A DNA stretch of 64,000 nucleotides from NCBI RefSeq assembly GCF_029872155.1, contig NZ_JARXLA010000002.1, forward strand, positions 248,001-312,000, written 5' to 3'. The translations under genes were made by a program, and so were the position numbers. Below the pieces are notes generated by a model, which worked only from the letters and a program-made list of their open reading frames with translations, was not told the origin of the DNA and did not search any database. Source of the DNA: Hyphomicrobium sp. D-2 (lineage in GTDB: Bacteria; Pseudomonadota; Alphaproteobacteria; Rhizobiales; Hyphomicrobiaceae). Below are positions 3,289 through 19,576 of this stretch, piece after piece. The first letter of the stretch is position 1. Every line of letters begins with the position of its first letter.

Positions 3289-3336
3289 TATTGGCGATCC
3301 CGGCAGGGCTCGAACCTGCGACCCTCTGCTTAGAAG
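3289..3336. repeat. attL: displaced 3' half of tRNA-Arg
   Basis: From TATTGGCGATCCCGGCAGG through to TTAGAAG this segment repeats 19529-19576, differing only at 3308-3309 (GC versus AT). It covers the T-arm, variable region and 3' anticodon arm of the tRNA-Arg gene. The sequence diverges immediately after TTAGAAG, inside the anticodon arm. It is the old tRNA end left behind when the element brought its own replacement copy. Confidence 0.9.
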
Positions 3337-3505
3337 TTACGTCCCGCGCTGATTCAAAACGCCGCAAACCACAACTTACACATGGACAATTTTGTTGTTC
3401 CTATTGGCGTTACGGAAGTTGGTTCGTATCATTTGCGAACAAACAATTTCCGGGCGGAACAGGTGCATCGCGTTACCCCGGCGCTACCCTTGGGGGAAAT
3501 GCGAC

Positions 3506-4840
3506 GTGGCGAAAATTCTGACAGCAGCAGCAGTTGAAAAGCTGAAGCCGAAGCCGCACCGATGGGAGGTTCCCGACGCGCGGCTACCGAACTTATACCT
3601 TATTATTCAACCAGGTGGCGCGCGGAGCTGGGCGGTGCGCTATCGCACTGGCGGTCGCACGCGCAAGTATACGCTCGGCCCGTATCCACGCATCGAGCTT
3701 GCCGACGCTCGTAGGCTGGCGCGCGATGCGCTGCAGGCGGTCGATGAAGGTCGAGATCCGGCGCAGGAGAAGCGGATCGTCCGCAGCGAGGCTGGCTTAG
3801 CCGGCGACAAGCGCTTTCCGGCGCTGGCGAAAGAATTCGTCGCCCGGTACGCAAAGCCCCGTAATCGCCGCTGGAAGGAATCGGCCCGCCTGATTGGCCT
3901 GCGGTACGATGAAGACGGAGGTGCTTCCGTCATTAAGGGCAGCGTGGCCGACAAGTGGTCCCATCGGCCGGTCGACCAGATAAAGAAGCGCGAGGTTGTG
4001 GCTGCGCTGGATACGATTGCAGACCGTGGCCATGGCTGCACCGCGCTCCACACCCTCACCGCCTTGCGAAAATTCTTCAACTGGCTTGTCGAGCGAGACG
4101 TCATTGAGGCGTCTCCGTGTTCCGGGGTCAAGCCGCCAGTCCCGGCCAAAGAGCGGGATCGCGTGTTGTCTGACGACGAACTACGCGCCCTTTGGCAAGC
4201 CGTCGACGCCGAACAGCCACCATTCCGCCAAGCGCTGAAGCTCTTGATGCTGACGGGCCAGCGCCGCACGGAGGTTGCAGGCCTTGTGCGACCAGAGCTG
4301 AGCTCGGACACCCGACTTTGGACGCTGCCGGGGGACCGATCCAAGAACGGCCAGGAGCACCTTATTCCGCTGACGGACGCCGCCGCTGCGCTGATCGAGC
4401 AGGCTCCGGCCATTGCCGAATGTCCGTTCGTGTTCTCGGTGACTGGGCGTAGTCCGATCTCGGGGTTCAGCCGGTCAAAGAAGCGGCTAGACGCTGCGAT
4501 GAGTAAGACGCTCGGCGCTCCGGTTCAGCCCTGGGTTCTGCACGATCTGCGAAGGACGGTCGCGACGCGGCTCGCTGAGCTGGAAGTGCCACCACATGTT
4601 GTCGAGGCCATTTTAAACCACCGAAGCGGCGTCATCAGCGGCGTGTCTGCGATCTACAACCGACACAGCTACCTGGATGAGAAGCGCGCGGCGCTCGAAA
4701 AGTGGGAGCGGCGCCTGGGCGAGATCGTCGGTTTTCAGGGGCATGGCTCGCCCGATGCAGAGCCGAAAAATCAGCAGAAGACGCGATTTACGGTGGATGG
4801 AGTTACCACAATGGTTGAGCTGCATTCCACAGTGCGTTAG
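3506..4840 (+). CDS. int: P4-type tyrosine site-specific integrase
   Basis: 444 residues from a GTG start at 3506, preceded by a GGGGGAAA ribosome-binding site; upstream in-frame ATGs would read through the att region. The N-terminal arm-binding domain (DUF4102-like) covers about residues 3-95 (WAVRYRTGGRTRKYTLGPYP). The catalytic domain has Arg253 in TGQRRTEVAGL, the HDLRR box near residue 346, LNHRSG, and Tyr384 in YNRHSY as the likely nucleophile. It lies 170 bp inside attL and should catalyse integration and excision at tRNA-Arg(UCU). All core residues are present, so it should be active. Confidence 0.95.
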   Translation: MAKILTAAAVEKLKPKPHRWEVPDARLPNLYLIIQPGGARSWAVRYRTGGRTRKYTLGPYPRIELADARRLARDALQAVDEGRDPAQEKRIVRSEAGLAGDKRFPALAKEFVARYAKPRNRRWKESARLIGLRYDEDGGASVIKGSVADKWSHRPVDQIKKREVVAALDTIADRGHGCTALHTLTALRKFFNWLVERDVIEASPCSGVKPPVPAKERDRVLSDDELRALWQAVDAEQPPFRQALKLLMLTGQRRTEVAGLVRPELSSDTRLWTLPGDRSKNGQEHLIPLTDAAAALIEQAPAIAECPFVFSVTGRSPISGFSRSKKRLDAAMSKTLGAPVQPWVLHDLRRTVATRLAELEVPPHVVEAILNHRSGVISGVSAIYNRHSYLDEKRAALEKWERRLGEIVGFQGHGSPDAEPKNQQKTRFTVDGVTTMVELHSTVR

Positions 4841-4928
4841 AAAATATCACTTTTTGTGACTTTCGGCATTGACGTTCAGCGTTTGTTCTGGCATATTTAC
4901 GAAATCTTAAGACTGACGAGGACTCCCG

Positions 4929-5207
4929 ATGACCGTTCAAATCGATTCGGTGGGTCGCAGCGAAGTTGGTTCCCGCGTCGGCAGCGTCCCCCCTGTGAAT
5001 GAAGCGCAGCGCAAGCCGCAGCCTCAAAACGTATATCTGTCGCGGACGCAGGTCCGGCAGCGATACGGTGGCGTCACTCGTGTGACGATATATCGATGGG
5101 TGAAAAACGAGGCGCTGGGCTTCCCGAAGCCGATCACCATATGTGCCCGCGACTACTGGGCGCTGTCGGATCTTGAGGCGTTCGAGCGATCCAAGAAGGC
5201 GGCATAA
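4929..5207 (+). CDS. AlpA-family DNA-binding protein / candidate excisionase
   Basis: 92 residues. After a variable 35-residue N-terminus it reads YLSRTQVRQRYGGVTRVTIY and then a RWVKN segment, followed by FPKPI, YWALSDLEAFERS. This is the MerR/AlpA-type winged helix-turn-helix typical of AlpA and Xis proteins beside P4-type integrases. ATG at 4929 is preceded by GACGAGGACTCCCG, a plausible ribosome-binding site. It probably directs excision and/or controls the integrase or the replication genes downstream. A terminator follows at once. Confidence 0.85.
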   Translation: MTVQIDSVGRSEVGSRVGSVPPVNEAQRKPQPQNVYLSRTQVRQRYGGVTRVTIYRWVKNEALGFPKPITICARDYWALSDLEAFERSKKAA

Positions 5208-5237
5208 CGTGAAAACACGACGCCGACCTTAGACAAG

Positions 5238-5276
5238 AAAAAACCCCGGCGGCGCTGTGCGCCATCGGGGCTGTTT
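5238..5276. terminator. Bidirectional-looking terminator after the AlpA gene
   Basis: A-rich tract, then CCCCG (5244-5248) pairing with CGGGG (5266-5270), with an inner GGCGC-TGT-GCGCC stem, then CTGTTTT. It separates the int-alpA unit from the replication operon. Confidence 0.75.
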
Positions 5277-5303
5277 TGCGTTCGTAAATTTGTATCGTCA
5301 CCC

Positions 5304-5354
5304 GATCCTTGTCTCGCGTTCCGAGGCGGACCAACGCCTCAGGAGAACAGGATC
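5304..5354 (+). promoter_or_regulatory. Long imperfect hairpin upstream of the initiator gene
   Basis: GATCCTTGTCTC (5304-5315) pairs with GAGAACAGGATC (5343-5354) in 10 of 12 positions. It encloses a perfect inner hairpin GAGGCG / CGCCTC (5323-5328, 5335-5340) with a six-base loop. It lies 110 bp before the initiator start. It could be an RNA leader structure, a DNA cruciform or a regulator site; the sequence does not decide between these. Confidence 0.5.
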
Positions 5355-5462
5355 TCGTCAACACAGGAGATCGTCAGAGCATGTATTCTGATACTCGCAT
5401 TCTCGCTTCCAAGCAAGCGAAAACGGTCGATCTCCGCGCTTACACAACGGAGTTATTCGACC

Positions 5463-6398
5463 ATGGCTGTTGTCATTCAACTGAGACCCGACGAGACGAA
5501 GCGGAGTAATCGCGGACGCCCACGCAAATGGCCAAACGGAAAGCCGCCGTCGCGCGCATGTGATGTTCGCCACTATGAGGAGGTGGAAGCGCATTGTCGC
5601 TCAGTGCCACGCAAAGACCTTTCAGACATTAAGGAGCGGGTCGCGCATCGTGCGGACATTGACCGGCTATCGCCTGCCGCAAAGGCAGTCCTGAACTTCT
5701 ACCTCCGTCATCTGAATTGGGGCGAGGGGTGCGACTGGCATTCGAATGCCGCCATCGCGGAGAGTAAGGCGCTTTCCGAGCGCAGCGTTGAACGAGGCAG
5801 AAAAGAACTGCGGGAGCGCGGTTACATCGTGTCGCGACCTATCCCGCTAGGTCGATCGTTGCCAGGCCTGACGCGGCAGCAGCAAGCTCGCAAACCGTGG
5901 CAGACGACCCTTGCAGTCATCCGTGAGGTGAGGACTTCGGAGGAAACAACTACCCGACAGAAAAATGCTTCTGACCCGACAGAAAATGTACCAGATGCCC
6001 GACAGAAAATGTCGAAATTGCCCGACAAAATTGTCGGACAAACACTTAAAGAGGAACAATTAAAGGTAACACCTAAGTGTGAGGTCGCTAAACGCTCCCG
6101 CTCGCGAGGGGCGCGAATTCGTCTTGAGCCAAGCGCTGAACTGGATCCTGATAGTCCGGCGATGGCCATAGCGCTGAAAGCCGGACTATCCGAGGGCGAG
6201 GCATTCCATGCGTTCAGCCGACTGCGCAACTGGGCCGTTGAACAGAACAAGTCCTGGCCGACGATGGATGCACTGCTTGCGCGGTGGGGCACTTGGGTCC
6301 GCGAGGATAGCGCTCGAAGCAAGAAAACATATGCGCGAGCCAGTGCTGCCGATCTTGCAAACTCAGCTTTTGAGATCTTCGAGGGGGCAACGCCATGA
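5463..6398 (+). CDS. Lambda-O-like replication initiator (putative)
   Basis: 311 residues. An N-terminal winged-helix segment (about residues 65-120: LSPAAKAVLNFYLRHLNW, then SNAAIAESKALSERSVERG and KELRERGYIVSR) resembles phage replication-protein DNA-binding domains. A low-complexity linker (about 160-200) is followed by a C-terminal domain of about 100 residues. The linker DNA holds four regularly spaced repeats (separate entry), the arrangement of lambda O, in which the origin lies inside the initiator gene. It overlaps the next gene by 4 bp (ATGA). The function is inferred from fold and origin layout; no biochemical motif proves it. Confidence 0.65.
   Translation: MAVVIQLRPDETKRSNRGRPRKWPNGKPPSRACDVRHYEEVEAHCRSVPRKDLSDIKERVAHRADIDRLSPAAKAVLNFYLRHLNWGEGCDWHSNAAIAESKALSERSVERGRKELRERGYIVSRPIPLGRSLPGLTRQQQARKPWQTTLAVIREVRTSEETTTRQKNASDPTENVPDARQKMSKLPDKIVGQTLKEEQLKVTPKCEVAKRSRSRGARIRLEPSAELDPDSPAMAIALKAGLSEGEAFHAFSRLRNWAVEQNKSWPTMDALLARWGTWVREDSARSKKTYARASAADLANSAFEIFEGATP
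5953..6037 (+). repeat. Four iterons inside the initiator gene: probable replication origin
   Basis: CCCGACAGAAAAATG (5953), CCCGACAGAAAATG (5975 and 5998) and a shorter-match copy CCCGACAAAATTGTCGG (6021), at start-to-start distances of 22, 23 and 23 bp, about two helical turns. These distances are not multiples of three, so the repeats are read in different frames (TRQKN, DPTENV, ARQKM, LPDKI). They must therefore be conserved as DNA, not as protein. The fourth copy is also a palindrome, CCGACAA-AA-TTGTCGG. An A+T-rich segment with inverted ACACTTA / TAAGTGT (6042-6080) follows and could be the unwinding element. Confidence 0.8.
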
Positions 6399-7111
6399 CA
6401 GTGAGCAAGGCGGTCGTGCCGATCCGCGCAAACACTCCGGCACAAACTACTGAGCCAGTTCTGCGAGTCAGCAAGGCGGTGGCTACTGGCCTGACTGATC
6501 TAACCATCGCATTCCGCCCCGGGCGCCAGCACATGGACGACGACCGCAAGCGGTGGCTGCAGATCTGCGCCAAGGCCGTCGCGAAGTTTGACGAGCAGAT
6601 CATCGTTGCTGTGCTCGACGAACTGCTGACGGACAACAAGGCAAATCCATTCTGGCCAACGCCGCAGGATATTTTCGAGGCGTGCAAAAAGAAGGAAAGC
6701 CGATGGCAGGCGGATACTTTCGTCAAATTCGGGCTGCTTAGCACACAACGTTGGAGTCCGTCCGAAGTCAGGGACATGCGCAGAAACGCAGGCATCGCGC
6801 CTGCTGCGTTCGAGTTGGCGACGCTGCGGCGGCACATAAACGACAACCTTGAGCGAATGCTCCGCCTGTTTAGAGACGGATACCGTGACGATTGCCACCC
6901 GATAATCACGATGGCAGAGGAAGTTTTTGCCGCCATTCCAAGAGCGGCCTTTCCTGAAAACGCTCACGAGCGGATCGTTGCTGCCCGCGGAAAGTACGCA
7001 GCCGCTGTGCAGCGTGAGGCGAATGATAGCGCCGCAAATCGGGCACGTCACTTGGAGGCGTGCGGCATTGAAATCCCGAAGCCGGAGGTGCGCGATGAAC
7101 GGCACCATTGA
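6395..7111 (+). CDS. Replication-module protein, possible helicase loader
   Basis: 238 residues, starting 4 bp inside the initiator gene. The part at about residues 45-100 (WLQICAKAVAKFDEQIIVAV, then NPFWPTPQDIFEACKKK) resembles the small helical domain of phage replication proteins that bind or load the helicase (lambda P and G39P-like partners). This is a weak, pattern-level resemblance. The remainder is charged and helical with no ATPase motif. Its position between a probable initiator and an SSB supports a replication role. It overlaps the SSB start by 17 bp. Confidence 0.5.
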   Translation: MTVSKAVVPIRANTPAQTTEPVLRVSKAVATGLTDLTIAFRPGRQHMDDDRKRWLQICAKAVAKFDEQIIVAVLDELLTDNKANPFWPTPQDIFEACKKKESRWQADTFVKFGLLSTQRWSPSEVRDMRRNAGIAPAAFELATLRRHINDNLERMLRLFRDGYRDDCHPIITMAEEVFAAIPRAAFPENAHERIVAARGKYAAAVQREANDSAANRARHLEACGIEIPKPEVRDERHH

Positions 7112-7505
7112 AACGGCCTTCAGCGGCCGTGTCGGCACGGATCCTGAGCGCCGAACCAGTCAGGCCGGCAAACCTTGGCTGCGCTTCAGCGTGGCAGTCG
7201 GATCGGACGACGCAGTGCAGTGGGTGCAGGTGGCAGTGTTCGGGCAGCAGGCCGAAGATCTGTCCACCAGGCTGCATAAGGGCGATCGCGTCTACGTCGA
7301 GGGCACGCTCCGTCTCAACACCTGGACGGACCATGACGGGCGTGAGCGATCTGGATTGTCAGTGGCTGCATGGAAAGGCGAAAGGCTCGGCGCCATTGGC
7401 CGGAACAAACCTCGCCGGCAGGACAAGCCATCGCTTCCGGCGACGGACGAACGCGCGATGCAGCGGACACAGCAGCCGCTCGACGAAGCGTTGATACCAT
7501 TCTGA
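7095..7505 (+). CDS. ssb: Single-stranded DNA-binding protein (phage-type)
   Basis: 136 residues from ATG 7095, with GGAGG seven bases upstream; a longer frame from 6927 has no such signal. The OB fold runs from about residues 5-95 (AFSGRVGTDPERR, KPWLRFSVAVG, VQWVQVAVFGQQAEDL, KGDRVYVEGTLRLNTW). A short basic tail ends in ALIPF, close to the IPF tip through which SSBs recruit partner proteins. It probably protects single strands at the element's own origin. Shorter than typical chromosomal SSBs. Confidence 0.9.
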   Translation: MNGTIETAFSGRVGTDPERRTSQAGKPWLRFSVAVGSDDAVQWVQVAVFGQQAEDLSTRLHKGDRVYVEGTLRLNTWTDHDGRERSGLSVAAWKGERLGAIGRNKPRRQDKPSLPATDERAMQRTQQPLDEALIPF

Positions 7506-7517
7506 GGGGGGAAGACC

Positions 7518-7802
7518 ATGAACGATAACGACCACGACCAAGACCACGACCACGACGAAGAACAGGCGCAGCAATTCATCGAGGGCGAATTGAGCGAGAT
7601 CGTTGGCGATCACTTCGAGCAAGGCGAGAGCACCGCCGTCATAGGGCAAGCACTGCTCAGCACCATGCTCGATTTTATCGAGAAGACGGCATCCTGCCCG
7701 CACGAGGTGGCGTTGTTCTTCTCGGCAATCCAGGACGAGGTGCACCGCCGCTTGGAACTACTCGTCGCGCAGCATCAAGCGCAAAATGCGGTCAAGCACT
7801 GA
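7518..7802 (+). CDS. Acidic hypothetical protein
   Basis: 94 residues, beginning with a run of Asp, His and Glu (MNDNDHDQDHDHDEEQAQQF) that could bind metal, followed by a predicted all-helical segment. ATG 7518 is preceded by GAGGGGGGAAGACC, a strong ribosome-binding site, 12 bp after the SSB stop. The family is not recognised. It is co-transcribed with the replication genes. Confidence 0.65.
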   Translation: MNDNDHDQDHDHDEEQAQQFIEGELSEIVGDHFEQGESTAVIGQALLSTMLDFIEKTASCPHEVALFFSAIQDEVHRRLELLVAQHQAQNAVKH

Positions 7803-8045
7803 TGCGCCACAAAACCGAAGCTTGCCGAACCAACCTTTTCTGCGGCAGCGGCTCGCAAGGCCTTCCGGCATTGCAGAAATCGCGACCTTCTGCTTGCGCA
7901 TCAGATGGTCCGAGCACGAAACGCCTTTGTTTTATGGGCTTTTATCGCGTCCGCAGGCTGCGAAACCAAGGGGCAGGGTATCGCATGGGTAACAACGGAT
8001 GCCGCCGCAAGGTGCGCGGACGCCGAATGGATGGGGGACGGATAC

Positions 8046-8462
8046 ATGCAGTTGCATGACGAAACGAGGTCGGACAAGCCGCCGAAGCTTCGAAAGCGTC
8101 GGCGCACCAAGATCGAGTTGCCGACAGTCGCGACCTTGGACATGCGCACCCGCGCCGGCAGACTCTATCGCGACACGAGGGAGGCCATCATATCGGATCT
8201 CGGCGGGCGAGACCAGCTATCGCGCGCGGAACTTGAACTCGTCGAACGCGTCGCCGGATTATCAACGAGGCTCAACGCCGCCGATGCTGAACTGCTGTCC
8301 GGCGAGACGCAGAGCTTGGCACCCGGCGAATACGCGACGTTGGCAAACAGCCTGGGGCGGATCCTGACGATCCTGGGCCTTCAGCGCCGCCAGCGTGACG
8401 TCACGCCGACGCTTCGCGCCTATATCGACGCCAAGTCACATCAGGGGGCGCGCGCAGCATGA
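8046..8462 (+). CDS. Probable small terminase-like protein
   Basis: 138 residues from ATG 8046 (MQLHDETRSDKPPKLRKRRR), with GGGGGACGG upstream; the frame stays open to 7905, so a longer form is possible. A basic N-terminus is followed by a helical region (TRAGRLYRDTREAIISDLGG, then LSRAELELVERVAGLSTRL). Its last codon overlaps the start of the large terminase gene by 4 bp. Small size, basic N-terminus, helical body and direct coupling to terL fit a DNA-recognition (small) terminase subunit. The role is inferred from position. The preceding 240 bp (7803-8045) hold no convincing gene. Confidence 0.5.
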   Translation: MQLHDETRSDKPPKLRKRRRTKIELPTVATLDMRTRAGRLYRDTREAIISDLGGRDQLSRAELELVERVAGLSTRLNAADAELLSGETQSLAPGEYATLANSLGRILTILGLQRRQRDVTPTLRAYIDAKSHQGARAA

Positions 8463-9955
8463 GGTACAGCGAAGCACGTAAAGACCCCAACCTGTTCGGG
8501 CCGTGGTTCTCCGGCCCTTCATGGGGCACCTGGGATGTGATCGCCAAGGCAGTGTTTGGCGAGGCGCTGACGGCTGATGAACTCAAGGTGTTTGCAGAGT
8601 TGGCCGGGCACGATCAGGCACCGACTTCGCAGGCCGATGAGATCTGGATCGCAGGTGGTCGCCGTGGCGGCAAGGACGTCAACGCCGCCTCACTGGTGGC
8701 CTTTCTCGCAACCGTTGGCGCTGAGCTTCTGAACTTCCGCGCGCACCTGGTGCGAGGCGAGCGGGGCGTTGTGCAGTTGCTGGCGGTCGACCGCGATCAG
8801 GCAAAGATCGCGATGGGGTATCTGAAAGCCTACTTTGAGCAACTGCTGCTGGCGCAGATGGTACTGGGCACGACTGCCGACACCATCGAGCTGAACAACG
8901 GGCTATCCATCGAAATCACGACGAACGACAAGCGCCGCGTGCGCGGGCGGACCGTAGTAGCCGCCGTGCTCGATGAGGTCGCACACTGGTTGCCGAGCGA
9001 GACCTCCACCAATCCGGACACGGAAGTATATCGGGCGCTCAAGCCCGCCATGGCGACCATTCCGAACGCCTTGTTGATCGGTATCTCGTCACCCTATGCC
9101 CGCCGTGGGCTGTTTTGGAAGAAATACCAAGCGCATTACGGCAAGCCGGGTCGCGTGCTGTTCCTGAAAGCGCCGACATGGGTGCTCAACCCGACGCTGC
9201 CGCGCGATGGTGACTTCCTGACTGAAGCCTTCAACGACGATCCCATCAATGCAGCCAGCGAGTTCGGCGCCGAGTTTCGATCCGATGTTGAGCGCTTCAT
9301 CACCTTGGAGGTGGTGCAGGCCTGCGTATCGCCCAGCGTGTTTGAGCGCCTGCGCGCTGCCGGTGTCACGCACTTCGCATTCGTCGATCCGGCAGGTGGC
9401 TCTGGCTCCGACAGTATGACATTGGCAGTCGGGCACCGGGATGGTGACATGGCCGTGCTGGATGCTGTCAGGGAGCGCAAACCGCCGTTCTCGCCGGAGT
9501 CAGTGGTGGTTGAGTTCGCGGAGACGCTGAAGGCCTACGGCATCACGCGCATCACCGGGGATCGGTACGCTTCCGAGTGGCCCCGTGAGCAGTTTCGCAA
9601 GCAAGGCATTGCTTACGACACGTCAGAAAAGACCCGCAGCGATCTCTATCGAAACATGCTCCCGGTGCTGAACAGTAACAAGGCGGATCTGCTGGATAAC
9701 GGCCGGCTCGTTGCTCAGATCGTGAGCCTTGAGCGTCGTGTATCGCGTGGGGGCAAGGAAATCATCGACGCACCGCCTGGTGGCCATGAGGACCTCTGCA
9801 ACGCAGTGGCTGGCGTCATTGATCTGTGTGCGGTCCGCCGCGAGTTCATGCCGCCAACTGCCGTTGTCGGGCGGTGGGGGCGACCGACCGAATACTCTGA
9901 GTTTTCCGATGAGCCGGAGTCCGCGTGCCCCTACGTGGGGCGTGTTGATCGGTAG
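8459..9955 (+). CDS. terL: Phage terminase large subunit
   Basis: 498 residues, complete. The ATPase domain has a Walker-A-like GGRRGGKD (66-73), Walker B VVAAVLDE (166-173) and a coupling motif GISSP (208-212). The RNase-H-like nuclease has Asp310 (FAFVDPAGG), Asp368 (TGDRYASEW) and Asp445 (GGHEDLCNAV). All key residues are present, so DNA cutting and packaging motor activity are expected. A portal gene normally follows terL in a phage; none does here. The packaged DNA would therefore enter a procapsid supplied from elsewhere, which is the key argument for a satellite-type life cycle. Confidence 0.95.
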   Translation: MRYSEARKDPNLFGPWFSGPSWGTWDVIAKAVFGEALTADELKVFAELAGHDQAPTSQADEIWIAGGRRGGKDVNAASLVAFLATVGAELLNFRAHLVRGERGVVQLLAVDRDQAKIAMGYLKAYFEQLLLAQMVLGTTADTIELNNGLSIEITTNDKRRVRGRTVVAAVLDEVAHWLPSETSTNPDTEVYRALKPAMATIPNALLIGISSPYARRGLFWKKYQAHYGKPGRVLFLKAPTWVLNPTLPRDGDFLTEAFNDDPINAASEFGAEFRSDVERFITLEVVQACVSPSVFERLRAAGVTHFAFVDPAGGSGSDSMTLAVGHRDGDMAVLDAVRERKPPFSPESVVVEFAETLKAYGITRITGDRYASEWPREQFRKQGIAYDTSEKTRSDLYRNMLPVLNSNKADLLDNGRLVAQIVSLERRVSRGGKEIIDAPPGGHEDLCNAVAGVIDLCAVRREFMPPTAVVGRWGRPTEYSEFSDEPESACPYVGRVDR

Positions 9956-10025
9956 TCTGTCTGCGTAGTGCAGTTGCGTTCGAGTGGAGGTGTGAGTTCA
10001 GACAAAACAACGAGAGAGATGGAAA

Positions 10026-10910
10026 ATGCTGAAAAGCTTGCCGGGCCAAGATGGCCGCATCACCGTGAATGGACGTTATGTTGGCACGTGGCAGTGGGGG
10101 GACAAACAGAACCCCATCTTTGCCAAGCTCAAGGATGCCTATGACTCCAGCTTGAACGTGGCGCGAGAGTTTGGGAAGCGTCGCCAGGATCTGCAAAGCA
10201 ACGAGCATCTGACGGACACCGGACGGAAGTTCGAACTTGAGAAGTGGGCTCGCGCTTCGGCTTTGGGGCCTCTTGCAAAAGCAAGGAAGCTTGCCATCCC
10301 GGCAGCGAAACGAGAAATCGAGGCGCGCACGAACCGCCTGCACGTCGAAGGGCCGGACAAGTCGGACCTAGCGGGCGCAGTGATGCGTGGCGAGATCCGC
10401 ACATGGCTACGGGGCTTGCCGGCCAAGGGGCGCAGCGCGGTTCTGGATGCGGATGCAGATCCACTGATCGCACTGGCAATCGTTGAGGGGCCGGCGGCGC
10501 TTTCTGGCGTTTCACCCTCGCGACACGCGCGGCTCGTCGAGAAAGCCATTGATGCTTTGCATCCGGGCGAACGCGAGGAAGTTGCCGAACTGCAGAAGGC
10601 CGTTGAAACGGTCGAGCGCATGGTCTCTGCGGCGGAGGTGAGCATGCAGAGTGAGTTCGCTCTCACGACGCGGGCGTTTCAGTCATGGCTCGACGGTGCT
10701 CCGCTTGAGGGCGTGAGCCGCACTTTTCTCAAGCAGCGCGACGGGCATGTGTACGCCTTCACACGCGGCGCAGACGGGCAGGTGAAGCAGGAGATCGCAA
10801 GCGTCGATCAGATCACGGTCGGCATCTGGATCAAGGACGACGATCCGTCGACGCACATTCCGAAGGACTGGCTGGGCAAGCCTGGCGACGTCCTGCTTAG
10901 CGCTGCGTAA
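10026..10910 (+). CDS. Hypothetical protein downstream of terL
   Basis: 294 residues; not recognised. The N-terminus (GQDGRITVNGRYVGTWQWGD) looks like a small beta element. The middle is helical and charged, with LPAKGRSAVLDADADPLIAL and coiled-coil-like REEVAELQKAVETVERMVSA. It has no membrane segment and none of the expected portal features (portals are usually over 400 aa). ATG 10026 follows GAGAGATGGAAA. Its place after terL suggests a packaging or head-related job, but nothing in the sequence proves it. Confidence 0.6.
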   Translation: MLKSLPGQDGRITVNGRYVGTWQWGDKQNPIFAKLKDAYDSSLNVAREFGKRRQDLQSNEHLTDTGRKFELEKWARASALGPLAKARKLAIPAAKREIEARTNRLHVEGPDKSDLAGAVMRGEIRTWLRGLPAKGRSAVLDADADPLIALAIVEGPAALSGVSPSRHARLVEKAIDALHPGEREEVAELQKAVETVERMVSAAEVSMQSEFALTTRAFQSWLDGAPLEGVSRTFLKQRDGHVYAFTRGADGQVKQEIASVDQITVGIWIKDDDPSTHIPKDWLGKPGDVLLSAA

Positions 10911-10941
10911 GGTTTCGCTGCGGGCAAGCTCGCGGCTTTTA

Positions 10942-13897: not shown

Positions 13898-14208
13898 TGG
13901 AGAGGTACATCAACAGCGACAACAAGCCGGTGGAAGTCATTGTCACCGACAGGCTTGTGCGACCACTTGGCAATACGCTCACGGTTGCCATTTGGGCAAT
14001 CGTCGATTGCCTGGCGCGTGAGAACCCCGGAAAGCGGGCTGAAATCGAGGAGCGGCTATTGATGGTGGCAGAGATCCTCGACCGCGACCAAGATCAGGCA
14101 ACGAAGTACGATACCGAGCTTCTCCGAGAACTGGCGAAGATGATGCACTTGCGAACAGCGACACCTTGGAAGCCGCGCGTCGTTACGAATGACGACCCGC
14201 AGACGTGA
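13897..14208 (+). CDS. Hypothetical protein after the tape-measure gene
   Basis: 103 residues; starts in a TAATG overlap with the tape-measure stop, so it is translationally coupled. Mostly helical and charged (ERLLMVAEILDRDQDQATKY). Not recognised. It is the last gene of the long rightward operon; the hairpin array begins 24 bp after its stop. Confidence 0.65.
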   Translation: MERYINSDNKPVEVIVTDRLVRPLGNTLTVAIWAIVDCLARENPGKRAEIEERLLMVAEILDRDQDQATKYDTELLRELAKMMHLRTATPWKPRVVTNDDPQT

Positions 14209-14232
14209 AAGCGGCGGCACCGAGCGCTGAGG

Positions 14233-14508
14233 GGTACTCACCGGGTGAGTATCCTTCTTGCGCAAGGGTAGCCACAATGTGGTCCCCCTTGCAGGGTCCA
14301 TCCTCAGTCGGAGGACGGACAGGTTCATTCCCCATCGGGGGTTGGATGTTCACCCGCCGATGGCGGACGGATGACGTCCACCGTTGGTGAAGGTCTCAGT
14401 GGGGACACTTCCTCCAATGGAGGAAGACCCCGTGCCGGGTATATGCGTCACGCACATACCTTCAAGGTGTGGCCATGGTGGCAAAGGTGTGGGAATGACA
14501 CCCACACC
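14233..14508. repeat. Array of twelve tandem hairpins, most with three-base loops
   Basis: Nearly all of this 276-bp gap between convergent genes folds into consecutive, unrelated hairpins. Spans and loops: 14233-14254 (CGG), 14257-14266 (palindrome), 14272-14282 (AAT), 14286-14296 (TGC), 14297-14319 (AGTCG), 14330-14340 (ATC), 14354-14366 (GAT), 14379-14389 (GTT), 14408-14426 (AAT, 8-bp stem CTTCCTCC/GGAGGAAG), 14438-14460 (TCA), 14472-14482 (TGG), 14486-14508 (7-base loop, 8-bp stem). Nine have exactly three loop bases. Stem sequences differ from one another, so this is not a copied repeat, and U-tracts are absent. Function unknown. Confidence 0.75.
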
Positions 14509-14519
14509 CTGCTGATGCG

Positions 14520-15317
14520 TCAGGCTACTCTCTCCTCAAATTTGAGGGCAGTGCCGGTCATGCTGAACACGGCAGCGGCGAGTTCGACGGCAGCCCATTG
14601 CTCGCGGTCTTCACTCGGGTCGAGTTCAAGGCTAAGGCCGCGAAGGTGAGCTACCGGGTCATCCCAAACACCGGGAAGCCAGCTACCGTTGCTCATGTGC
14701 AATACGACTGCTGCGCGGTCGAGAAGGTCGCTCATGCCCCGCACTGGGCGCGAATGGATGCGTGCGCAGACGGAATGTGTTCTCCCTGTCGCTGCCATTA
14801 GCTGTTCGTGCCAGTAGGGATCGCCGGGTGGAGCATTGTCCCAGTGGTCGATCACAACGCTAAGCTCTGCCGCCAGACGGCGAAGCTCGATGAAATCAGC
14901 AGAGGGCGTAACAGGCGCTGACACCGCATCGAAGCCTTTCGTCACTGGCGACGGCGACGCTACATGCGGCTTGCTTTCCACCTTGCGTGTATCGTCGGCC
15001 AACATCAGCAGGCTCGCCACAATCTGGCGTGACAGGGTTGCGTCCTGCTCATCGTTGTCATCGAACCTGGCCGCTGTCGTGGTGTAGACCGAGGCAAGCG
15101 CGGCGGCCTTCGCTTTGATGCCTTGCACGGTCGTCACGCGCGCGGCGATGATCTGGTCGACGATGGCGTTGTAGGCGCCCAGTGCTTTGTCTAGCGTTGC
15201 ATCGTCGTAGGCCATCTTCACGATCTTTTCCGCACGCTCCAGCTTTCGGGCGAGAGAGATCAGCTTGGCATCGCGCTTCGGCGCGGCCTTGCGTTTGCGT
15301 TTAGCTGCCATCGTCAT
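14520..15317 (-). CDS. Hypothetical protein with RPVR-x3-DLLD motif
   Basis: 265 residues from ATG 15317, preceded by GGGGAGGG and overlapping the upstream stop as ATGA. Lys/Arg-rich start (MTMAAKRKRKAAPKR), a helical middle, then a C-terminal domain with SRPVRGMSDLLDRAAVVLHM. That motif matches RPVRSLADLLDIAEMVV in the gene at 15792, so the two share a paralogous domain. Third gene of a leftward operon. No known function. The hairpin array lies just beyond its stop. Confidence 0.7.
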   Translation of the reverse strand: MTMAAKRKRKAAPKRDAKLISLARKLERAEKIVKMAYDDATLDKALGAYNAIVDQIIAARVTTVQGIKAKAAALASVYTTTAARFDDNDEQDATLSRQIVASLLMLADDTRKVESKPHVASPSPVTKGFDAVSAPVTPSADFIELRRLAAELSVVIDHWDNAPPGDPYWHEQLMAATGRTHSVCARIHSRPVRGMSDLLDRAAVVLHMSNGSWLPGVWDDPVAHLRGLSLELDPSEDREQWAAVELAAAVFSMTGTALKFEERVA

Positions 15318-15799
15318 GCCCTCCCCACAGGTGGTGCCGGGATCGTCGCGGGGCGATGGCTGGGCAGCCATGCCGGCGCTGGCTGATTGAATGCGTTGCA
15401 GTCCATCAGTTCGAGTCCGTTCCAAAGAGCACGCTTCGATTCATGGAGCAGGTCTCCAATAAGTGCGAAGGTCCCATCCTGGATGTCGTGCGTGCGTCTT
15501 CCGCCGCCTTGCAGCATCATCAGGTCGTCGACCAGCCGGGCGATGCACTCGATGCGGTAGAGATGACATTCGATGCGTGGCGATTTTCCGAGATACTCAC
15601 GCCAGGCGTTAGCGTCCCGGAGCAGTAGTTCCTGACGAATTGCAGCGGCGCGGGCTGCATCAATCTCGGCGGGTGACGGTGGCACGGCCTTAGGCGCGCG
15701 CTTGGTGCGCCTTGGTGCTGCGGCTTTTGCCTTTCGCGGTTTGCGCTTCGGTGTCGGGACGACAGTTCCGGCGATGTTGTCGTTCATGTGCTTAGCCAT
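15314..15799 (-). CDS. Hypothetical basic protein
   Basis: 161 residues from ATG 15799 (MAKHMNDNIAGTVVPTPKRK); both ends overlap neighbouring genes, which supports this start over an upstream one at 15898. The first 55 residues are rich in Lys, Arg, Pro and Ala, like a nucleic-acid-binding tail. The rest is helical (RIECHLYRIECIARLVDDLM). Middle gene of the leftward three-gene operon. Not recognised. Confidence 0.65.
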   Translation of the reverse strand: MAKHMNDNIAGTVVPTPKRKPRKAKAAAPRRTKRAPKAVPPSPAEIDAARAAAIRQELLLRDANAWREYLGKSPRIECHLYRIECIARLVDDLMMLQGGGRRTHDIQDGTFALIGDLLHESKRALWNGLELMDCNAFNQPAPAWLPSHRPATIPAPPVGRA

Positions 15800-16169
15800 T
15801 GCAGCGGCCTCCGAACTGGAGCAACGCGCGCAGAAGGGCGCGCTCAATGTTGAAGCGGTGCCCTTCGCAGAACTGCTCATCGGGCAGGCCGTTCTCATCG
15901 GCGGTCCAGCGCTCGGCTACGACCATTTCTGCAATGTCCAGAAGGTCGGCCAACGAGCGAACTGGCCGCTCAAGCAGGGTGACGATGGCATCGTCGATCA
16001 GGTCACTGGCGACGGCTGCGCGCGCCTCGTCACCGGCCCAGATGCAGTCGACGTAGGCCGACCGGGCTTGGCTGAAACGGAGAAGTTCAGGGGATTGCTG
16101 GCGCGGTGCGCTTGGGCGCGGGCGCAGGGGTGGTGTATAAGCTTCGGCAGCTCTGAGCATGGCTTCCAT
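15792..16169 (-). CDS. Hypothetical protein with RPVR-x3-DLLD motif (first gene of leftward operon)
   Basis: 125 residues; first gene of the leftward operon. It contains LLERPVRSLADLLDIAEMVV, the same motif as the third gene (14520-15317), in a helical context with similar layout upstream. Start ATG 16169; an ATG at 16160 is possible. Its promoter must lie in the divergent region with the inverted-repeat operator (16242-16288). The domain is common in rhizobial mobile DNA as far as I recall, but no function is known. Confidence 0.65.
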   Translation of the reverse strand: MEAMLRAAEAYTPPLRPRPSAPRQQSPELLRFSQARSAYVDCIWAGDEARAAVASDLIDDAIVTLLERPVRSLADLLDIAEMVVAERWTADENGLPDEQFCEGHRFNIERALLRALLQFGGRCNG

Positions 16170-16241
16170 CCGTGCTTGGGGTTAGGCCCTTGCTCGGTGT
16201 TAGCGCACCTGCAGGGGCCGCTTGCATTTAACGGCACTTCA

Positions 16242-16288
16242 ATGTAATACAATGTCGTCAATAGCAAGTCAATTACATTGTATTACAT
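16242..16288. promoter_or_regulatory. 14-bp perfect inverted repeat, divergent operator
   Basis: ATGTAATACAATGT (16242-16255) is exactly inverted as ACATTGTATTACAT (16275-16288); the centres are 33 bp apart, three helical turns. It lies between divergent operons and ends 2 bp before the RHH gene start. The AT-rich repeat stands out from the GC-rich surroundings. The likely ligand is the RHH protein encoded next to it, acting as autorepressor and perhaps switching the leftward operon. Confidence 0.75.
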
Positions 16289-16290
16289 AG

Positions 16291-16452
16291 ATGCAGAAAA
16301 AAGACAGACAACACTCCATCCGCCTTACGTCAGAGACGTCTGAAGCTATTCAAGAGATGGCTGAAGCTGAAAGCCGGTCGTTTGGATCTATGGTGGAGAT
16401 CGCTTTGCGTGATTTCATCGCCCGCAAGGCGAAACCGAAGGCCAAGCGATGA
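16291..16452 (+). CDS. Small ribbon-helix-helix DNA-binding protein
   Basis: 53 residues: MQKKDRQHSIRLTSETSEAI and then QEMAEAESRSFGSMVEIALR, ending in a basic tail. HSIRLTSETSEAI is an RHH beta strand plus helix, and SFGSMVEIALRDFI fits the second helix (CopG/Arc type). It starts 2 bp after the inverted repeat and overlaps the next gene by ATGA. It is probably the regulator that binds that operator. A toxin-antitoxin antitoxin is an alternative, but the partner does not look like a known toxin. Confidence 0.75.
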   Translation: MQKKDRQHSIRLTSETSEAIQEMAEAESRSFGSMVEIALRDFIARKAKPKAKR

Positions 16453-16757
16453 GAAGCCGCTCGGTCGTTCATGTGGTCGCGAACGACGTAATTTCAGTCG
16501 GAGCGAAGGAGCGGGTGAAGGTTCTAGGGCGAGTTGGCCCAGGTAAAGCAGGACGCACACACGAGCTGATCAGAGGCGAAGAAGCTATCAAGTCCACTGG
16601 CGGGTGGGCGCAGAAGGTTCGACTGATCGATTGGGCGCGCGATTGGTATCTTGAGATGGTCTACGATCCGGAGGGCCGAAGTCTTCCACGCTATGAGAAT
16701 GGCCGGTTGTCAGATCATCAGGGCTATGGATCTGCGAGATTCAAAACCAAGCGGTAG
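16449..16757 (+). CDS. Hypothetical protein coupled to the RHH regulator
   Basis: 102 residues, starting in an ATGA overlap with the RHH gene. The C-terminal part (WYLEMVYDPEGRSLPRYENG, then LSDHQGYGSARFK) resembles a conserved tail of rhizobial hypothetical proteins that I recall from mobile DNA but cannot assign. No toxin family signature is visible. Confidence 0.6.
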   Translation: MRSRSVVHVVANDVISVGAKERVKVLGRVGPGKAGRTHELIRGEEAIKSTGGWAQKVRLIDWARDWYLEMVYDPEGRSLPRYENGRLSDHQGYGSARFKTKR

Positions 16758-16804
16758 CCCGCACCAGCAGTGGGATGAAAACGGGCAAAGGTTAGGTGGC
16801 ATCA

Positions 16805-17371
16805 TCACCACAATGAGCGCCAGTGAGCTCGCCTATACGGCGCCAGCATCGCCTCGACTTCTGTCATCTGTGCGGGTGAAGCGTTTTCTGCGGATAAAAC
16901 GCAATACCAAGCACTCACGTCACGTAAGCAGCCTCGTAGGTCAGCCACGGCGGATAACCCCCACGACATGTGCCATACAAACATTAGAGATGCCGCAATC
17001 GCGAATGCGGTTGGGCCTCGATGGACAGGGCGACGCCAGGAGCAAGTTGGTTTTACCGACTTCGGCATAGATGCCTGCACCCGCACCGCCAAATATATGC
17101 CCGAGGCCCACAGTGCTGCCATTCCGAATGATGTCGCCATCGTCAGAAAGATGACGCGTGGAAAAGGCATCGTCCAAAGCTGGCTACCCGCCGCTAACCC
17201 AGCGACGGCAATAGCGCCAAGAGCAGCGATGAAAAGCTTCCAAAGATCTCCGGTGAAGGAAAGGCTGCTGCTCTCTTGAGCGATATGAGGTGCCTCTTGC
17301 GGCGACTTCTGAGCGAAATTTTTCATCGCGCCATCGTTCACGAACTTGGCGCTAGGGCCATGGCCGGTCAT
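16805..17371 (-). CDS. Hypothetical inner-membrane protein
   Basis: 188 residues with three probable membrane helices, around residues 45-65 (LFIAALGAIAVAGLAAGSQL), 72-95 (VIFLTMATSFGMAALWASGI) and 120-140 (AFAIAASLMFVWHMSWGL). The C-terminal soluble part has a Cys pair (LRGCLRDVSAWYCVL). Start taken at ATG 17371; ATG at 17326 (MKNFAQ) is an alternative. Not recognised. A membrane accessory protein in a phage-like element could act in superinfection exclusion, but this is a guess. Confidence 0.5.
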   Translation of the reverse strand: MTGHGPSAKFVNDGAMKNFAQKSPQEAPHIAQESSSLSFTGDLWKLFIAALGAIAVAGLAAGSQLWTMPFPRVIFLTMATSFGMAALWASGIYLAVRVQASMPKSVKPTCSWRRPVHRGPTAFAIAASLMFVWHMSWGLSAVADLRGCLRDVSAWYCVLSAENASPAQMTEVEAMLAPYRRAHWRSLW

Positions 17372-17501
17372 TTCAATGTTGTGGAAAGATTTTCACTCTG
17401 TCGCGTCATCCACAGTTTGAGTCTGGCTTCAGGTTGCGTGCATCTCTCTGGCGACTGACCTTCTCACTGATATTTCGATTCTGAGAATATTTGAGGTCGC
17501 G

Positions 17502-18107
17502 ATGAACCGAATTGCTGCATTGGCAGCCACCGTTTTTCTTGGCGGATGCGCTGGCTTGGCTGACGGAACCGACGCATTAGTCGGCATCGGCAGCATTTCC
17601 GCCGAGAAGTCCACTTTTAGTGGCGCTTACGAAGTGCGAATGCAGCCTGCATGGGTTTACGGCGGCGATTTCTTCGGTGTTTCGATGGTAAAGCTTGGCG
17701 CGTCCTGGACCGCTGAAAATGCTGAAACGGTTTATCTTGTGATGATGGTGAACAGCTCCACACAGAGCTCCCTCGTTTACGCTGGACTGGAAGGACTGCA
17801 GATCAACTTAAACGGTCAGATCCATTCGTTTAAGGCGGGCGCAGGGACCTCCATGAGCAGCAGTCCTTACAATACCGTGACACGACAGATATACACGCAG
17901 AGTAAGAACGCGGTTGCCGTTCCTCTCAGCTTGGTGCGTGAGATGGTAAGTTCGGAACACTGCAAAATTCGCTTTATCACCAGCGCGGGGTATCAAGAAG
18001 CTGACTTCTCCATTGAGCGGTCAGAGGCTGGTGGGGCTGGTGCGCGGCATTACATGCGCGAATTTCTTCAAAAGATTGATGCTGTGTCGAGTGGCGCGCA
18101 AGCGTAG
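17502..18107 (+). CDS. Hypothetical lipoprotein
   Basis: 201 residues with a clear type II signal: MNRIAALAATVFLGGCAGLA, lipobox LGGC, cleavage before Cys16. The remaining domain is predicted to be beta-rich (VYLVMMVNSSTQSSLVYAGL). ATG 17502 follows TTTGAGGTCGCG. It is a single gene transcribed against its neighbours, a morphogenetic-cargo (moron) arrangement. An envelope lipoprotein in a mobile element may alter the host surface; the function is unknown. Confidence 0.7.
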   Translation: MNRIAALAATVFLGGCAGLADGTDALVGIGSISAEKSTFSGAYEVRMQPAWVYGGDFFGVSMVKLGASWTAENAETVYLVMMVNSSTQSSLVYAGLEGLQINLNGQIHSFKAGAGTSMSSSPYNTVTRQIYTQSKNAVAVPLSLVREMVSSEHCKIRFITSAGYQEADFSIERSEAGGAGARHYMREFLQKIDAVSSGAQA

Positions 18108-18114
18108 CCTGTTT

Positions 18115-18375
18115 TTATATTCTTGCCCGGAACCTCAGTCCACACACCCAGATATCGCCACCAACATCGTCGGCATCGCATCGCAGTTTCAGCGCGCCGA
18201 TGATTTCGCGAAGCTGCTGGCCTAGCTGGTCCGCTGGCAGCCCTTCAACCTGCTGGCGGCTGCACCAACCGGGATAGAGGCTGTGGATCTTGCGCAGCGA
18301 CACGGCAGCACCCGGCACGCTTGGCGCAATGGTGCTGTTGAGAAAAGCGGAGACGTGTTCGCGGGCATCAGTCAT
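18115..18375 (-). CDS. Hypothetical third gene of the partition operon
   Basis: 86 residues; ATG 18375 overlaps the stop of the RHH gene upstream (TCAT on the plus strand). Mixed helical, with VSLRKIHSLYPGWCSRQQVE. Co-transcribed with the parA-like and RHH genes. Not recognised; perhaps an accessory of the same module. Confidence 0.6.
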   Translation of the reverse strand: MTDAREHVSAFLNSTIAPSVPGAAVSLRKIHSLYPGWCSRQQVEGLPADQLGQQLREIIGALKLRCDADDVGGDIWVCGLRFRARI

Positions 18376-18653
18376 TTGATGCCTTTCGTCTTGGCAGCCT
18401 TTTCGATGAGCTGCTCCAGCAGATCGGCTTGGGAAATGCCCTCAGCCTCACACAGTGCCTTGGCGAGATCGGATACCGATTTGCGCACGCGGGTGTTCAA
18501 CGGGGTGTTGCGGGTTTCCCGTTTCTTCCGCCGCCGGTCGTTGACCGCCATTCCCGCCCGCCGTTCGGCGCGCGCGCGGCGTTCGACGTTGGCGTGACTT
18601 CCGAAAGCACCCAGCAGCGCCTTGAAGTTCTGATCGTCGGCATCTTGCGTCAT
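18372..18653 (-). CDS. RHH protein, probable ParG/ParB-like partner of ParA
   Basis: 93 residues from ATG 18653, overlapping the ParA stop as ATGA. A disordered, basic N-terminus (about residues 1-50, Arg/Lys-rich) is followed by NTPLNTRVRKSVSDLAKALC and EGISQADLLEQLIEKAA, which match a ribbon-helix-helix DNA-binding domain. ParF-type systems pair a small ParA with such an RHH centromere-binding protein, so this is the likely centromere and operator binder. It fits the repeated GCTAGC sites upstream of parA. Confidence 0.7.
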   Translation of the reverse strand: MTQDADDQNFKALLGAFGSHANVERRARAERRAGMAVNDRRRKKRETRNTPLNTRVRKSVSDLAKALCEAEGISQADLLEQLIEKAAKTKGIK

Positions 18654-19282
18654 TGGCGGCCGCCTTTCTCCAGGGCAGCCTTCACCTCGGACCACAGCGC
18701 GTCGATTTCTTCAGCCGCGCGCTTGTCGCTGCCTTCCGCGCCGGTCTTTCCCGCTGCCATGGCGACCATGAATGCAGAGCGATGCGCCACCACAGCGCCA
18801 GCAACCGGCACGCCAGCGCCTTCCAAGTATTCCCGCGCCGATGATAGCCCTTTCCATCGGGTATCGACGTCATTGAAGACACAGAGGTATGGCCGCCCGG
18901 CCTCAGCAGCGAGCTGCACCGCGCCTTCGCTGCCGATTAGATCCAGCGCGCCAGGCCGGAGAGGGATGACCGACAGATCGGCGGTCGCAATGGCATCAGC
19001 AACCGCGGGCACGAATGCCGGCGGGGTGTCGAAGATCACAAGGTCAGGGGCTTCGGTCTGGTGCAGCGCCTCGATGGCATCGCTTGCCAGATCGGCATTG
19101 TGGAAGAGCGCCAGCCCAGTCCGATCCGCCCGGCGGCCAAACCAGTCGGCAAGGCTTTCCTGCGGGTCGAGGTCCACCAGCGCCACCCGCAGACCGTCCT
19201 GTGCGGCACGGACTGCAAGCGCTGCCGCTAGCGTGGATTTTCCGACGCCGCCTTTTAGGGATGCAAGCGCAATTGCTTTCAT
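18650..19282 (-). CDS. parA: ParA-family partition ATPase (small ParF type)
   Basis: 210 residues. Deviant Walker A LKGGVGKST at residues 9-17, Walker A' VALVDLDPQESLADWFGRR, and Walker B LVIFDTPPA. The short length and absent N-terminal HTH match ParF/ParA type Ib. It drives segregation of extrachromosomal DNA with an RHH partner. Its presence next to replication genes implies that the element has a replicating, partitioned phase outside the chromosome. It heads a three-gene leftward operon with repeated operator sequences just upstream. Confidence 0.88.
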   Translation of the reverse strand: MKAIALASLKGGVGKSTLAAALAVRAAQDGLRVALVDLDPQESLADWFGRRADRTGLALFHNADLASDAIEALHQTEAPDLVIFDTPPAFVPAVADAIATADLSVIPLRPGALDLIGSEGAVQLAAEAGRPYLCVFNDVDTRWKGLSSAREYLEGAGVPVAGAVVAHRSAFMVAMAAGKTGAEGSDKRAAEEIDALWSEVKAALEKGGRQ

Positions 19283-19284
19283 GT

Positions 19285-19330
19285 GCTAGCGCTCCAATGT
19301 TGCTAGCAACAAGATAGCGCTTTCGCTAGC
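19285..19330. promoter_or_regulatory. Repeated GCTAGC sites: partition operator / parS candidate
   Basis: The palindrome GCTAGC occurs at 19285, 19302 and 19325, and AGCGCT at 19288 and 19316, all within 46 bp directly upstream of the parA start. Such clustered short palindromes before a parF-type operon usually bind the RHH partner for autorepression and can serve as the centromere. Confidence 0.65.
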
Positions 19331-19376
19331 GGACAACAAGCGCAAGCAGGTGATTCGTCAGAACAGACGCCCGGAA

Positions 19377-19412
19377 GGATACCCACCCGGTGGGTAGCCC
19401 CGGAAATCGGGG
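19377..19412. repeat. Hairpin pair related to the first array hairpin
   Basis: TACCCAC-CCG-GTGGGTA (19380-19396), flanked by GG/CC, is followed by CCCCG-GAAAT-CGGGG (19398-19412). The first hairpin is the reverse complement of the one at 14233-14254 apart from one compensated pair (T-A there, C-G here) and one bulged base. Base-pair compensation between the two copies suggests that structure is kept. It lies between the parA promoter and attR. Confidence 0.6.
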
Positions 19413-19528
19413 TTCAGACGATGCTGGTTGAAGATTGTCGGCTGGCGTGGCTTTCGAGACTCACTAGGCTTTTTGTTACCCCAGTCGTTACCCTGGGGCC
19501 GTTCGAAAGCCCAATGAAACCAGCTAAG

Positions 19529-19576
19529 TATTGGCGATCCCGGCAGGATTCGAACCTGCGACCCTCTGCTTAGAAG
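19529..19576. repeat. attR within tRNA-Arg
   Basis: Second copy of the 48-bp attachment repeat (see 3289-3336). It now forms the functional 3' half of the tRNA gene, so integration preserved tRNA function. Confidence 0.9.

Follow-up and report, generated by a model that had tools for sequence, protein, structure and literature searches.

Phage satellites were known to hijack or reshape the heads of their helper phages and to steal their tails, and a 2026 study of the PLEs of Vibrio cholerae added the replacement of the tail ruler, which its authors describe as the first case (PMC12987554). According to that study, PLEs give rise to a chimeric tail made of the phage shell and a satellite tape-measure protein (TMP): PLE11 virions have tails about 10 nm shorter that contain the PLE TMP and exclude the phage TMP, deletion of tmp cut transduction by 96-99.9% in PLE1, PLE4 and PLE11, and predicted tmp genes are also reported for other putative satellites, including cf-PICIs. 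Here we analyze an element of 16,240 bp that occupies positions 3286-19576 of a stretch of 64,000 nucleotides (hereafter the window) from Hyphomicrobium sp. D-2, where it is integrated at a tRNA-Arg(tct) gene. The element is probably a phage satellite that packages itself by its own terminase into the heads of a helper and substitutes its own TMP in the tail.

Like the PLEs, the window element is a small satellite candidate with its own TMP, diverged from its phage counterpart. PLEs are described as pairing the TMP with a tail assembly chaperone (TAC), in some cases also with a baseplate hub, and as exploiting a contractile-tailed phage (PMC12987554), whereas the window element possesses its own large terminase subunit (TerL), a TMP of the TMP_3 type and no recognized TAC or hub; we liken the two by description, the site of the window element being tRNA-Arg. 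The cf-PICIs, of which some encode a putative TMP (PMC12987554, Extended Data Fig. 10 legend), share with it a small and a large terminase subunit (TerS and TerL) of their own and a dependence on helper tails, but are described as encoding capsid, protease, portal and connectors as well (PMC10690885). None of these four was recognized among the open reading frames (ORFs) of the window element that were scanned, and its TerS is assigned by position and conservation only. P4-like satellites and classical PICIs resemble it in their integrase, AlpA-like regulator (weak here), own replication module and similar size, but are packaged by the large terminase of the helper, sometimes redirected, whereas an intact TerL is present here. 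Of the set typical for P4-like satellites, that is integrase, AlpA, P4-type primase and a capsid-size gene, the AlpA of the window element is weak, its replication protein is O-like with an HTH_36 domain, and no P4-type primase was matched by Pfam and PHROGs. The 16.8-kb satellite AH14b of the Pseudomonas prophage AH14a is alike in size, integrase, AlpA and lack of structural genes; it has a P4-like primase, and the consulted part of its description names neither a terminase nor a TMP for it (PMC4936722). A literature search over titles and abstract openings for satellites with tape measure and terminase returned no description of this alphaproteobacterial family.

Borders, terminase and tape measure of the element

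The element is framed by two unstranded 51-nt direct repeats, attL (3286-3336) and attR (19526-19576), which are identical at 48 of 51 positions and whose spacing gives the length of 16,240 bp. The right copy overlaps one end of the tRNA-Arg(tct) gene (19532-19608, minus strand). This site is unoccupied in the nearest named relative found, a genome taken as Hyphomicrobium sulfonivorans S1 (NZ_PZPO01000006.1; NrdJ 98.7% identical): window positions 1-3336 and 19526-24348 abut there at 93.3% and 94.2% identity, respectively, with one att copy common to both. Just inside attL lies the gene of a tyrosine integrase (3392-4840, plus strand, 482 aa, start codon uncertain; PF00589 3.5e-17, PF13356 6.9e-19, phrog_1 5e-64). 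Judged from sequence, positions 3286-19576 represent mobile DNA that has integrated at a tRNA gene, with the site-specific integrase and att sites expected of a phage satellite; the extent of about 16 kb and the integrase given in an initial annotation of the window, which was made from its letters alone, both held.

From the left end, the plus strand carries the integrase, a weak AlpA-like protein, an O-like initiator, a 238-aa ORF, a single-strand DNA-binding protein (SSB), a small ORF, the TerS candidate, TerL, a conserved protein that we call g10026, a 122-aa ORF, the TMP and a 103-aa ORF; beyond the latter follow accessory ORFs and, on the minus strand at the right end, an RHH-like gene and parA. 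The TerS candidate (8046-8462, plus strand, 138 aa, its start now placed more probably at 8046) has no match by Pfam and PHROGs and is assigned by its position, by relatives upstream of TerL in many loci and by its conservation. It overlaps with an ATGA the gene of TerL (8459-9955, plus strand, 498 aa), which matches the PHROG terminase large subunit family at 7.9e-18. In an alignment of the window TerL with nine relatives, residues G67, R68, G71 and K72 of the Walker A motif GRRGGK, D172-E173, and D310, D368 and D445 are invariant in all ten sequences; we take these to be residues of the ATPase and nuclease. The nuclease half can be weakly aligned with TerL nucleases of solved structure (5m1f, E 0.005). 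The complete large terminase subunit read initially is thereby borne out. The adjoining g10026 (10026-10910, plus strand, 294 aa), a conserved gene that the initial annotation did not single out, encodes a mainly helical protein (model pLDDT 72) with homologues beside TerL in other elements. It is the best candidate for a link between the terminase of the element and a helper head, and, as a guess, might be a head or portal adaptor or an assembly redirector.

The TMP gene (11351-13897, plus strand) belongs to an ORF opening with GTG at 11327 and starts more probably at ATG 11351, where it overlaps ORF 10986-11354 by an ATGA. The resulting protein of 848 aa matches PF20155 at 1e-50 and phrog_3336 at 3.7e-83, so that an own full-length TMP, as described for PLEs, is present. 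The 122-aa protein preceding it (10986-11354, plus strand; 61% identical in H. sulfonivorans) found no family match by Pfam and PHROGs and stands where a TAC would be expected, and the 103-aa protein following it (13897-14208, plus strand; 82% identical) is coupled to the TMP by a TAATG overlap. Over 292 aa, the TMP_3 part shares 60% identity with a TMP of 1143 aa from a prophage in genome G850 of the same bacterial family. This prophage looks complete, with genes for a portal, a protease, a capsid, a tail terminator and a fibre, and its TerL is clearly different (best family phrog_9; no match to the window TerL by blastp at 1e-3). The C-terminal part (about 574-853) is common to the element TMPs of G356, G841 and the viral contig L037 at 29-39% identity, and the 798-aa TMP of L170, a 32.8-kb viral contig with a capsid gene, shows 45% identity over 682 aa. 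From these matches, the protein appears to be a functional siphophage-type TMP whose parts can be exchanged. That the element TMP is a shortened helper TMP does not hold in general, as related TMPs of larger viral contigs and prophages measure 767-1587 aa compared to 848 here. On the 11.4-kb contig L166 (IMGVR_UViG_3300017548_000134), which has no TerL match, a relative of the window TMP is split into several frames (4450-6748, 39-83% identity by stretch), possibly a decayed or poorly assembled relative.

Portal, capsid, protease, tail tube, baseplate and lysis genes had been reported as not seen, and none was found by Pfam and PHROGs in ten ORFs (one of them, 7108-7491, an alternative frame over ssb) or by Pfam alone in ten more. 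Four small ORFs lie outside both scans: 15792-16169 and 16449-16757 were compared with PADLOC only, and 15702-16247 and 16291-16452 entered no scan. Among the ORFs scanned, the element is without a full virion gene set, as is usual for a phage satellite, and lacks the portal, capsid, tail tube, tail tip and lysis genes of a complete siphophage prophage.

A diverged copy of the module resides in S1, where 22-nt repeats at a tRNA-Ser(gct) gene enclose an element of 16,513 bp; this tRNA-Ser region is also present in the genome of the window, matching from the tRNA outward. Both elements have in common TerS, TerL (87-88% identical), g10026, the 122-aa ORF, the TMP (79%), the 103-aa ORF, two accessory ORFs and ParA/RHH. 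Their integrases are only 28% identical, and the replication, 238-aa and SSB proteins of the window found no match in the S1 element by blastp at 1e-3, a helicase/primase gene being present there instead. By a simple Nei-Gojobori count between the two elements, the ratio of nonsynonymous to synonymous divergence (dN/dS) is 0.084 for TerL (495 codons), 0.118 for TerS, 0.144 for g10026, 0.108 for the TMP (839 codons), 0.122 for the 103-aa ORF, 0.204 and 0.165 for the two accessory ORFs, 0.068 for ParA and 0.039 for RHH; for the 122-aa ORF dS is saturated and no ratio can be computed. These values point to strong purifying selection on the packaging and TMP genes. Since dS between the elements is 0.73-1.78 (1.08-1.78 for terS, terL, g10026 and the TMP gene, 0.73-0.98 for five other genes) and thus far above the host value of 0.23 (one gene, nrdJ), the elements diverged long before their hosts, and sequence divergence suggests that they probably arrived separately.

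Relatives at tRNA genes and in the wider TerL family

Among 397 genomes of the order, 11 contain TerL relatives, as do 4 among 385 genomes of the class at E 1e-20, the genome of the window included in both counts, and a scan of genome contigs gave one locus, that of S1. An att search in 19 loci or assemblies yielded tRNA-overlapping repeats in 6, a 17-nt match off the tRNA in 1 and nothing in 12, several of which are cut by contig ends. Together with the window element, seven tRNA-bounded elements are available (window, 16,240 bp; S1, 16,513 bp; G249, 12,668 bp; G356, 14,403 bp; G142, 10,187 bp; G191, 11,657 bp; G238, 16,012 bp), in which an integrase, a replication gene and TerS-TerL form the common core and g10026 is present in all except G191. 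A TMP is strongly matched in three (window, S1 and G356) and weakly in G249 (568 aa, phrog_305 1.1e-4) and G191 (291 aa, phrog_1272 0.0018). No ORF above 260 aa lies 3' of TerL inside the elements of G142, where the one ORF scanned had no match, and of G238, whose ORFs were outside the scan. Small relatives at tRNA genes, for which the initial annotation had proposed a search with terminase, TMP and iteron initiator combined, do exist, six of them in addition to the window element, while the TMP accompanies them strongly in only three of the seven; the idea that the TMP defines the family was given up, as it is undetected in two. A search for relatives measuring 35-45 kb in which a complete head-tail module separates terL from the TMP gene, named at the outset as the sign of a deletion remnant, brought up none. 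In G841, near a contig end, TerS-TerL is followed by g10026 (51%), a 182-aa protein and a TMP-like protein (565 aa; phrog_9483 9.7e-19; 39% to the C-terminal part of the window TMP). The TerL of G238 is in two pieces with a minus-strand ORF of 270 aa between them (locus L028, 9544-11811), which is perhaps an insertion.

The single TerL as query matched no viral contig, and an alignment-based scan gave 95 relatives, of which 80 loci were kept. Several of these contigs are incomplete, so that a part can be called absent with confidence only in the tRNA-bounded elements, and there as far as their ORFs were scanned. A quick tree (SH-aLRT) of 86 TerL sequences, left from 93 once duplicates were removed, places the window and S1 together with L035, L036 and L037 in one clade of support 100. 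L035 encodes a protease (phrog_80 3e-49) and a capsid protein (phrog_10 1.7e-84), L037 has the same protease and capsid clusters and a TMP (phrog_24 3e-18), and L036 carries a tail-fibre protein (phrog_5616 6e-56). L035 and L037 are closer to cf-PICIs, with no portal-sized unassigned ORF in the part examined (none above 350 aa in 15,754 of the 17,124 bases of L037), and a profile comparison gave their protein 3' of TerL a probability of 0.1% of being g10026. Elsewhere in the family, g10026 occurs in L041 together with a baseplate hub and a TMP and in L040 together with a 956-aa TMP; L067 combines a protease with a TMP, a portal is encoded in L062 and in L064, and G099 has a TAC, a TMP, neck- and fibre-labelled genes and small head-labelled genes. 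g10026 is scattered over the TerL tree, on which many members (cluster c2 and others) carry portal genes; in L060 and L079, the latter with a TMP as well, its homologue is directly followed by a true portal (phrog_145), which rules out g10026 as the portal itself.

Virus Rctr16k (KX853514, locus L003), a 16.7-kb sequence that stems from a DAMO/AAA enrichment culture and is listed as a partial genome, is a distant relative with a TerL 23% identical over 83% of the query, a TMP-like protein, an integrase and rep-like proteins, but differs in carrying a head maturation protease (phrog_328). It may be a satellite rather than a virus; no paper on it was found in the literature searched. Metagenome 3300036987 contains both the satellite-sized L037, with capsid and TMP, and the phage-like L170; the capsids of the two contigs are 36% identical, and their TMPs gave no match to each other by blastp at 1e-3. 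The two are a possible but unproven satellite-helper pair.

Taken over the whole family, it is a tentative suggestion, somewhat short of an even chance, that these loci form an alphaproteobacterial satellite lineage with a constant core of integrase, replication and TerS-TerL and with swapped virion parts, in which each satellite rebuilds a chosen piece of the helper particle around its own motor. The swapped cassettes might then be a TMP alone, capsid, protease and TMP, a tail-fibre gene, baseplate hub and TMP, or a portal, and the window would represent, with the same reservation, the minimal 'motor plus ruler' form. The window element suggests that TMP supply occurs in an unrelated bacterial order, together with a satellite-encoded TerL and without recognized capsid genes, and its relatives suggest that the supplied virion part changes from element to element. 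The possible swapping of such cassettes around an unchanging packaging core is the point of greatest interest here, and the element series is a natural set in which to ask what parts of a virion a satellite has to bring along itself and what it can take from others.

A proposed packaging and tail-substitution scheme and its alternatives

Upon infection by a siphophage or induction of a prophage, the element would excise and replicate, starting at the iterons that lie within its rep gene. TerS-TerL would then dock on the helper portal, so that helper proheads would be filled with element DNA, while the element TMP, probably with its partners encoded at 10986-11354 and 13897-14208, would take the place of the helper TMP in tail assembly and give chimeric tails. 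A likely gain would be a tail matched to the element particles, or an escape from blocks aimed at the helper TMP, at a cost borne by the helper. We infer the tail role from anatomy, selection and the PLE precedent. The helper would likely be a siphophage with a TMP of that type, and a visiting phage would be likelier than a resident one. In the genome of the window, the only sites of PF04860 (portal) and PF05065 (capsid), one each at 315367 and 317624 of contig C2 and thus 3.4 and 5.6 kb past the window end, belong to a locus at about 313.1-330 kb with an HK97 portal, protease, capsid, an Rcc01695-family distal tail protein, a GTA megatron and a phage/GTA baseplate hub (NCBIfam), which by these families is a gene transfer agent (GTA) cluster and not a helper. 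PF05136 (portal) gave nothing in this genome and one match in S1.

The satellite interpretation is supported by the bounded relatives of 10.2-16.5 kb and by the occurrence of the packaging-TMP module at a second tRNA gene with another integrase and replication gene. Several findings weigh against it. No resident helper was seen with the three families PF04860, PF05065 and PF05136, other head families not having been searched. The protease and capsid genes of L035 and L037 lie between TerL and the TMP on contigs of 15-17 kb, part of the TerL family may build its own heads, and the portal-bearing relatives may be ordinary phages. The TMP, undetected in two and weak in another two of seven bounded elements, is accessory, not core, and cannot be essential to the family. 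A satellite that supplies its own TMP, which the initial annotation had considered an unusual strategy, has a demonstrated precedent in the Vibrio PLEs (PMC12987554). No TAC was recognized, in contrast to the PLEs that pair it with the TMP, the model of g10026 gave nothing at E below 0.001 against viral and PDB structures (Foldseek), four ORFs stood outside the Pfam and PHROGs scans, and the TerL of G238 is split.

A second use of the TMP in a satellite would be as a weapon that enters or jams helper tails in a dominant-negative manner, to the protection of the host or the advantage of the element, and is not needed in the particles of the element. Interference with tail assembly is described as a defence (Tai, PMC11364771; PMC10884400) and for Rta in PLE11 (PMC12987554), and some bounded relatives have no recognizable TMP. 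We nevertheless consider this unlikely, as the protein is of full length, matches TMP families over most of it, is constrained over 839 codons and is encoded in one tight gene run with terS-terL, and as PADLOC returned no match for nine of ten element proteins and only partial ones for ParA. That the element is instead a deletion remnant of a siphophage prophage, which chanced to keep terL and the TMP gene, is improbable and largely refuted, although L035 and L037, which together with L036 are its nearest TerL relatives, have protease and capsid genes between these two, the wider family includes portal-bearing contigs, and two loci of G376 and one of G238 look decayed. Intact frames and seven bounded elements of similarly small size make a remnant unlikely, and the tight gene overlaps, at TerS/TerL and 10986/TMP (ATGA) and at TMP/13897 (TAATG), which confirm the initial description, the strong purifying selection, the presence of the same module in a copy at such high dS, and the different TerL that accompanies the nearest prophage TMP found (G850) speak against it as well. 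In a survey of Hyphomicrobiales prophages by 13 gene classes, incomplete prophages outside animal-associated genera are described as keeping integrase and tail genes, in which they are enriched, and losing head genes and, preferentially, terminase genes (PMC11080155); this base rate is partly for a remnant, as a tail gene is kept here, and partly against it, as terL is kept.

The position of g10026 where a portal or head gene is expected, and its conservation beside TerL in elements of several host families, could mean that the element forms its own capsid from this or another unassigned, highly diverged ORF. We regard this as very improbable: the model consists mostly of long helices and lacks a structural match, homologues stand beside a true portal in L060 and L079, and the remaining called ORFs without assignment are at most 301 aa long. 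Another possibility is packaging into host GTA particles, with the terminase of the element replacing that of the GTA. In its favour, the sole PF04860 and PF05065 sites found in the genome belong to a cluster of GTA type, some 46-48 kb away from the element, and S1, G356, G249, G191 and G363 likewise have one site per family with similar scores (GTA nature unchecked). GTA heads hold about 4-5 kb and are too small for 16 kb, and a full siphophage-type TMP would not be expected to fit a GTA tail, so that we give this explanation hardly any credence.

Replication, accessory and maintenance genes

The replication module with iterons proposed initially was recovered. Its putative initiator (5463-6398, plus strand) is O-like with an HTH_36 domain (1.8e-7 by Pfam; O-like PHROGs 5e-6), and the iterons, CCCGACA repeats at 5953, 5975 and 5998 with a shorter match at 6021, are 22-23 bp apart. 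They lie inside the initiator gene (5953-6035); in phage lambda, iterons are likewise located inside the O gene. The 238-aa protein downstream (6395-7111, plus strand) has no assigned function and has relatives upstream of TerL in L035 and L037 (cluster c61), and SSB (7095-7505, plus strand, 136 aa) matches PF00436 at 2.2e-21. Of the AlpA-like protein, the small ORF itself stands (4929-5207, plus strand, 92 aa), while the family assignment is weak (PF05930 E 0.021, below the cut-off).

On the minus strand, three accessory ORFs without assigned function (14520-15425, 15314-15898 and 15792-16169), of which the last two are conserved at 75%, gave no match in PADLOC, nor did the first two in Pfam. 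They are followed by a putative lipoprotein of 201 aa (17502-18107, plus strand), whose signal was read by eye and which has no family match. At the right end, as initially read, are the RHH-like regulator (18372-18695, minus strand; PF10723 5.4e-5; 94% identical in the relative) and the ParA ATPase with which it is paired (18650-19282, minus strand; PF01656 2.1e-16). The matches of ParA in PADLOC, to PDC-M28B (2.6e-8) and two weaker models, extend over 25-58 residues of the ATPase part. ParA and its RHH-like partner stand just inside the tRNA end both in the window (18372-19282) and in locus L018 (19962-20872), despite differing integrases and rep genes, a placement hinting at a plasmid-like stage or a maintenance module on the att side.

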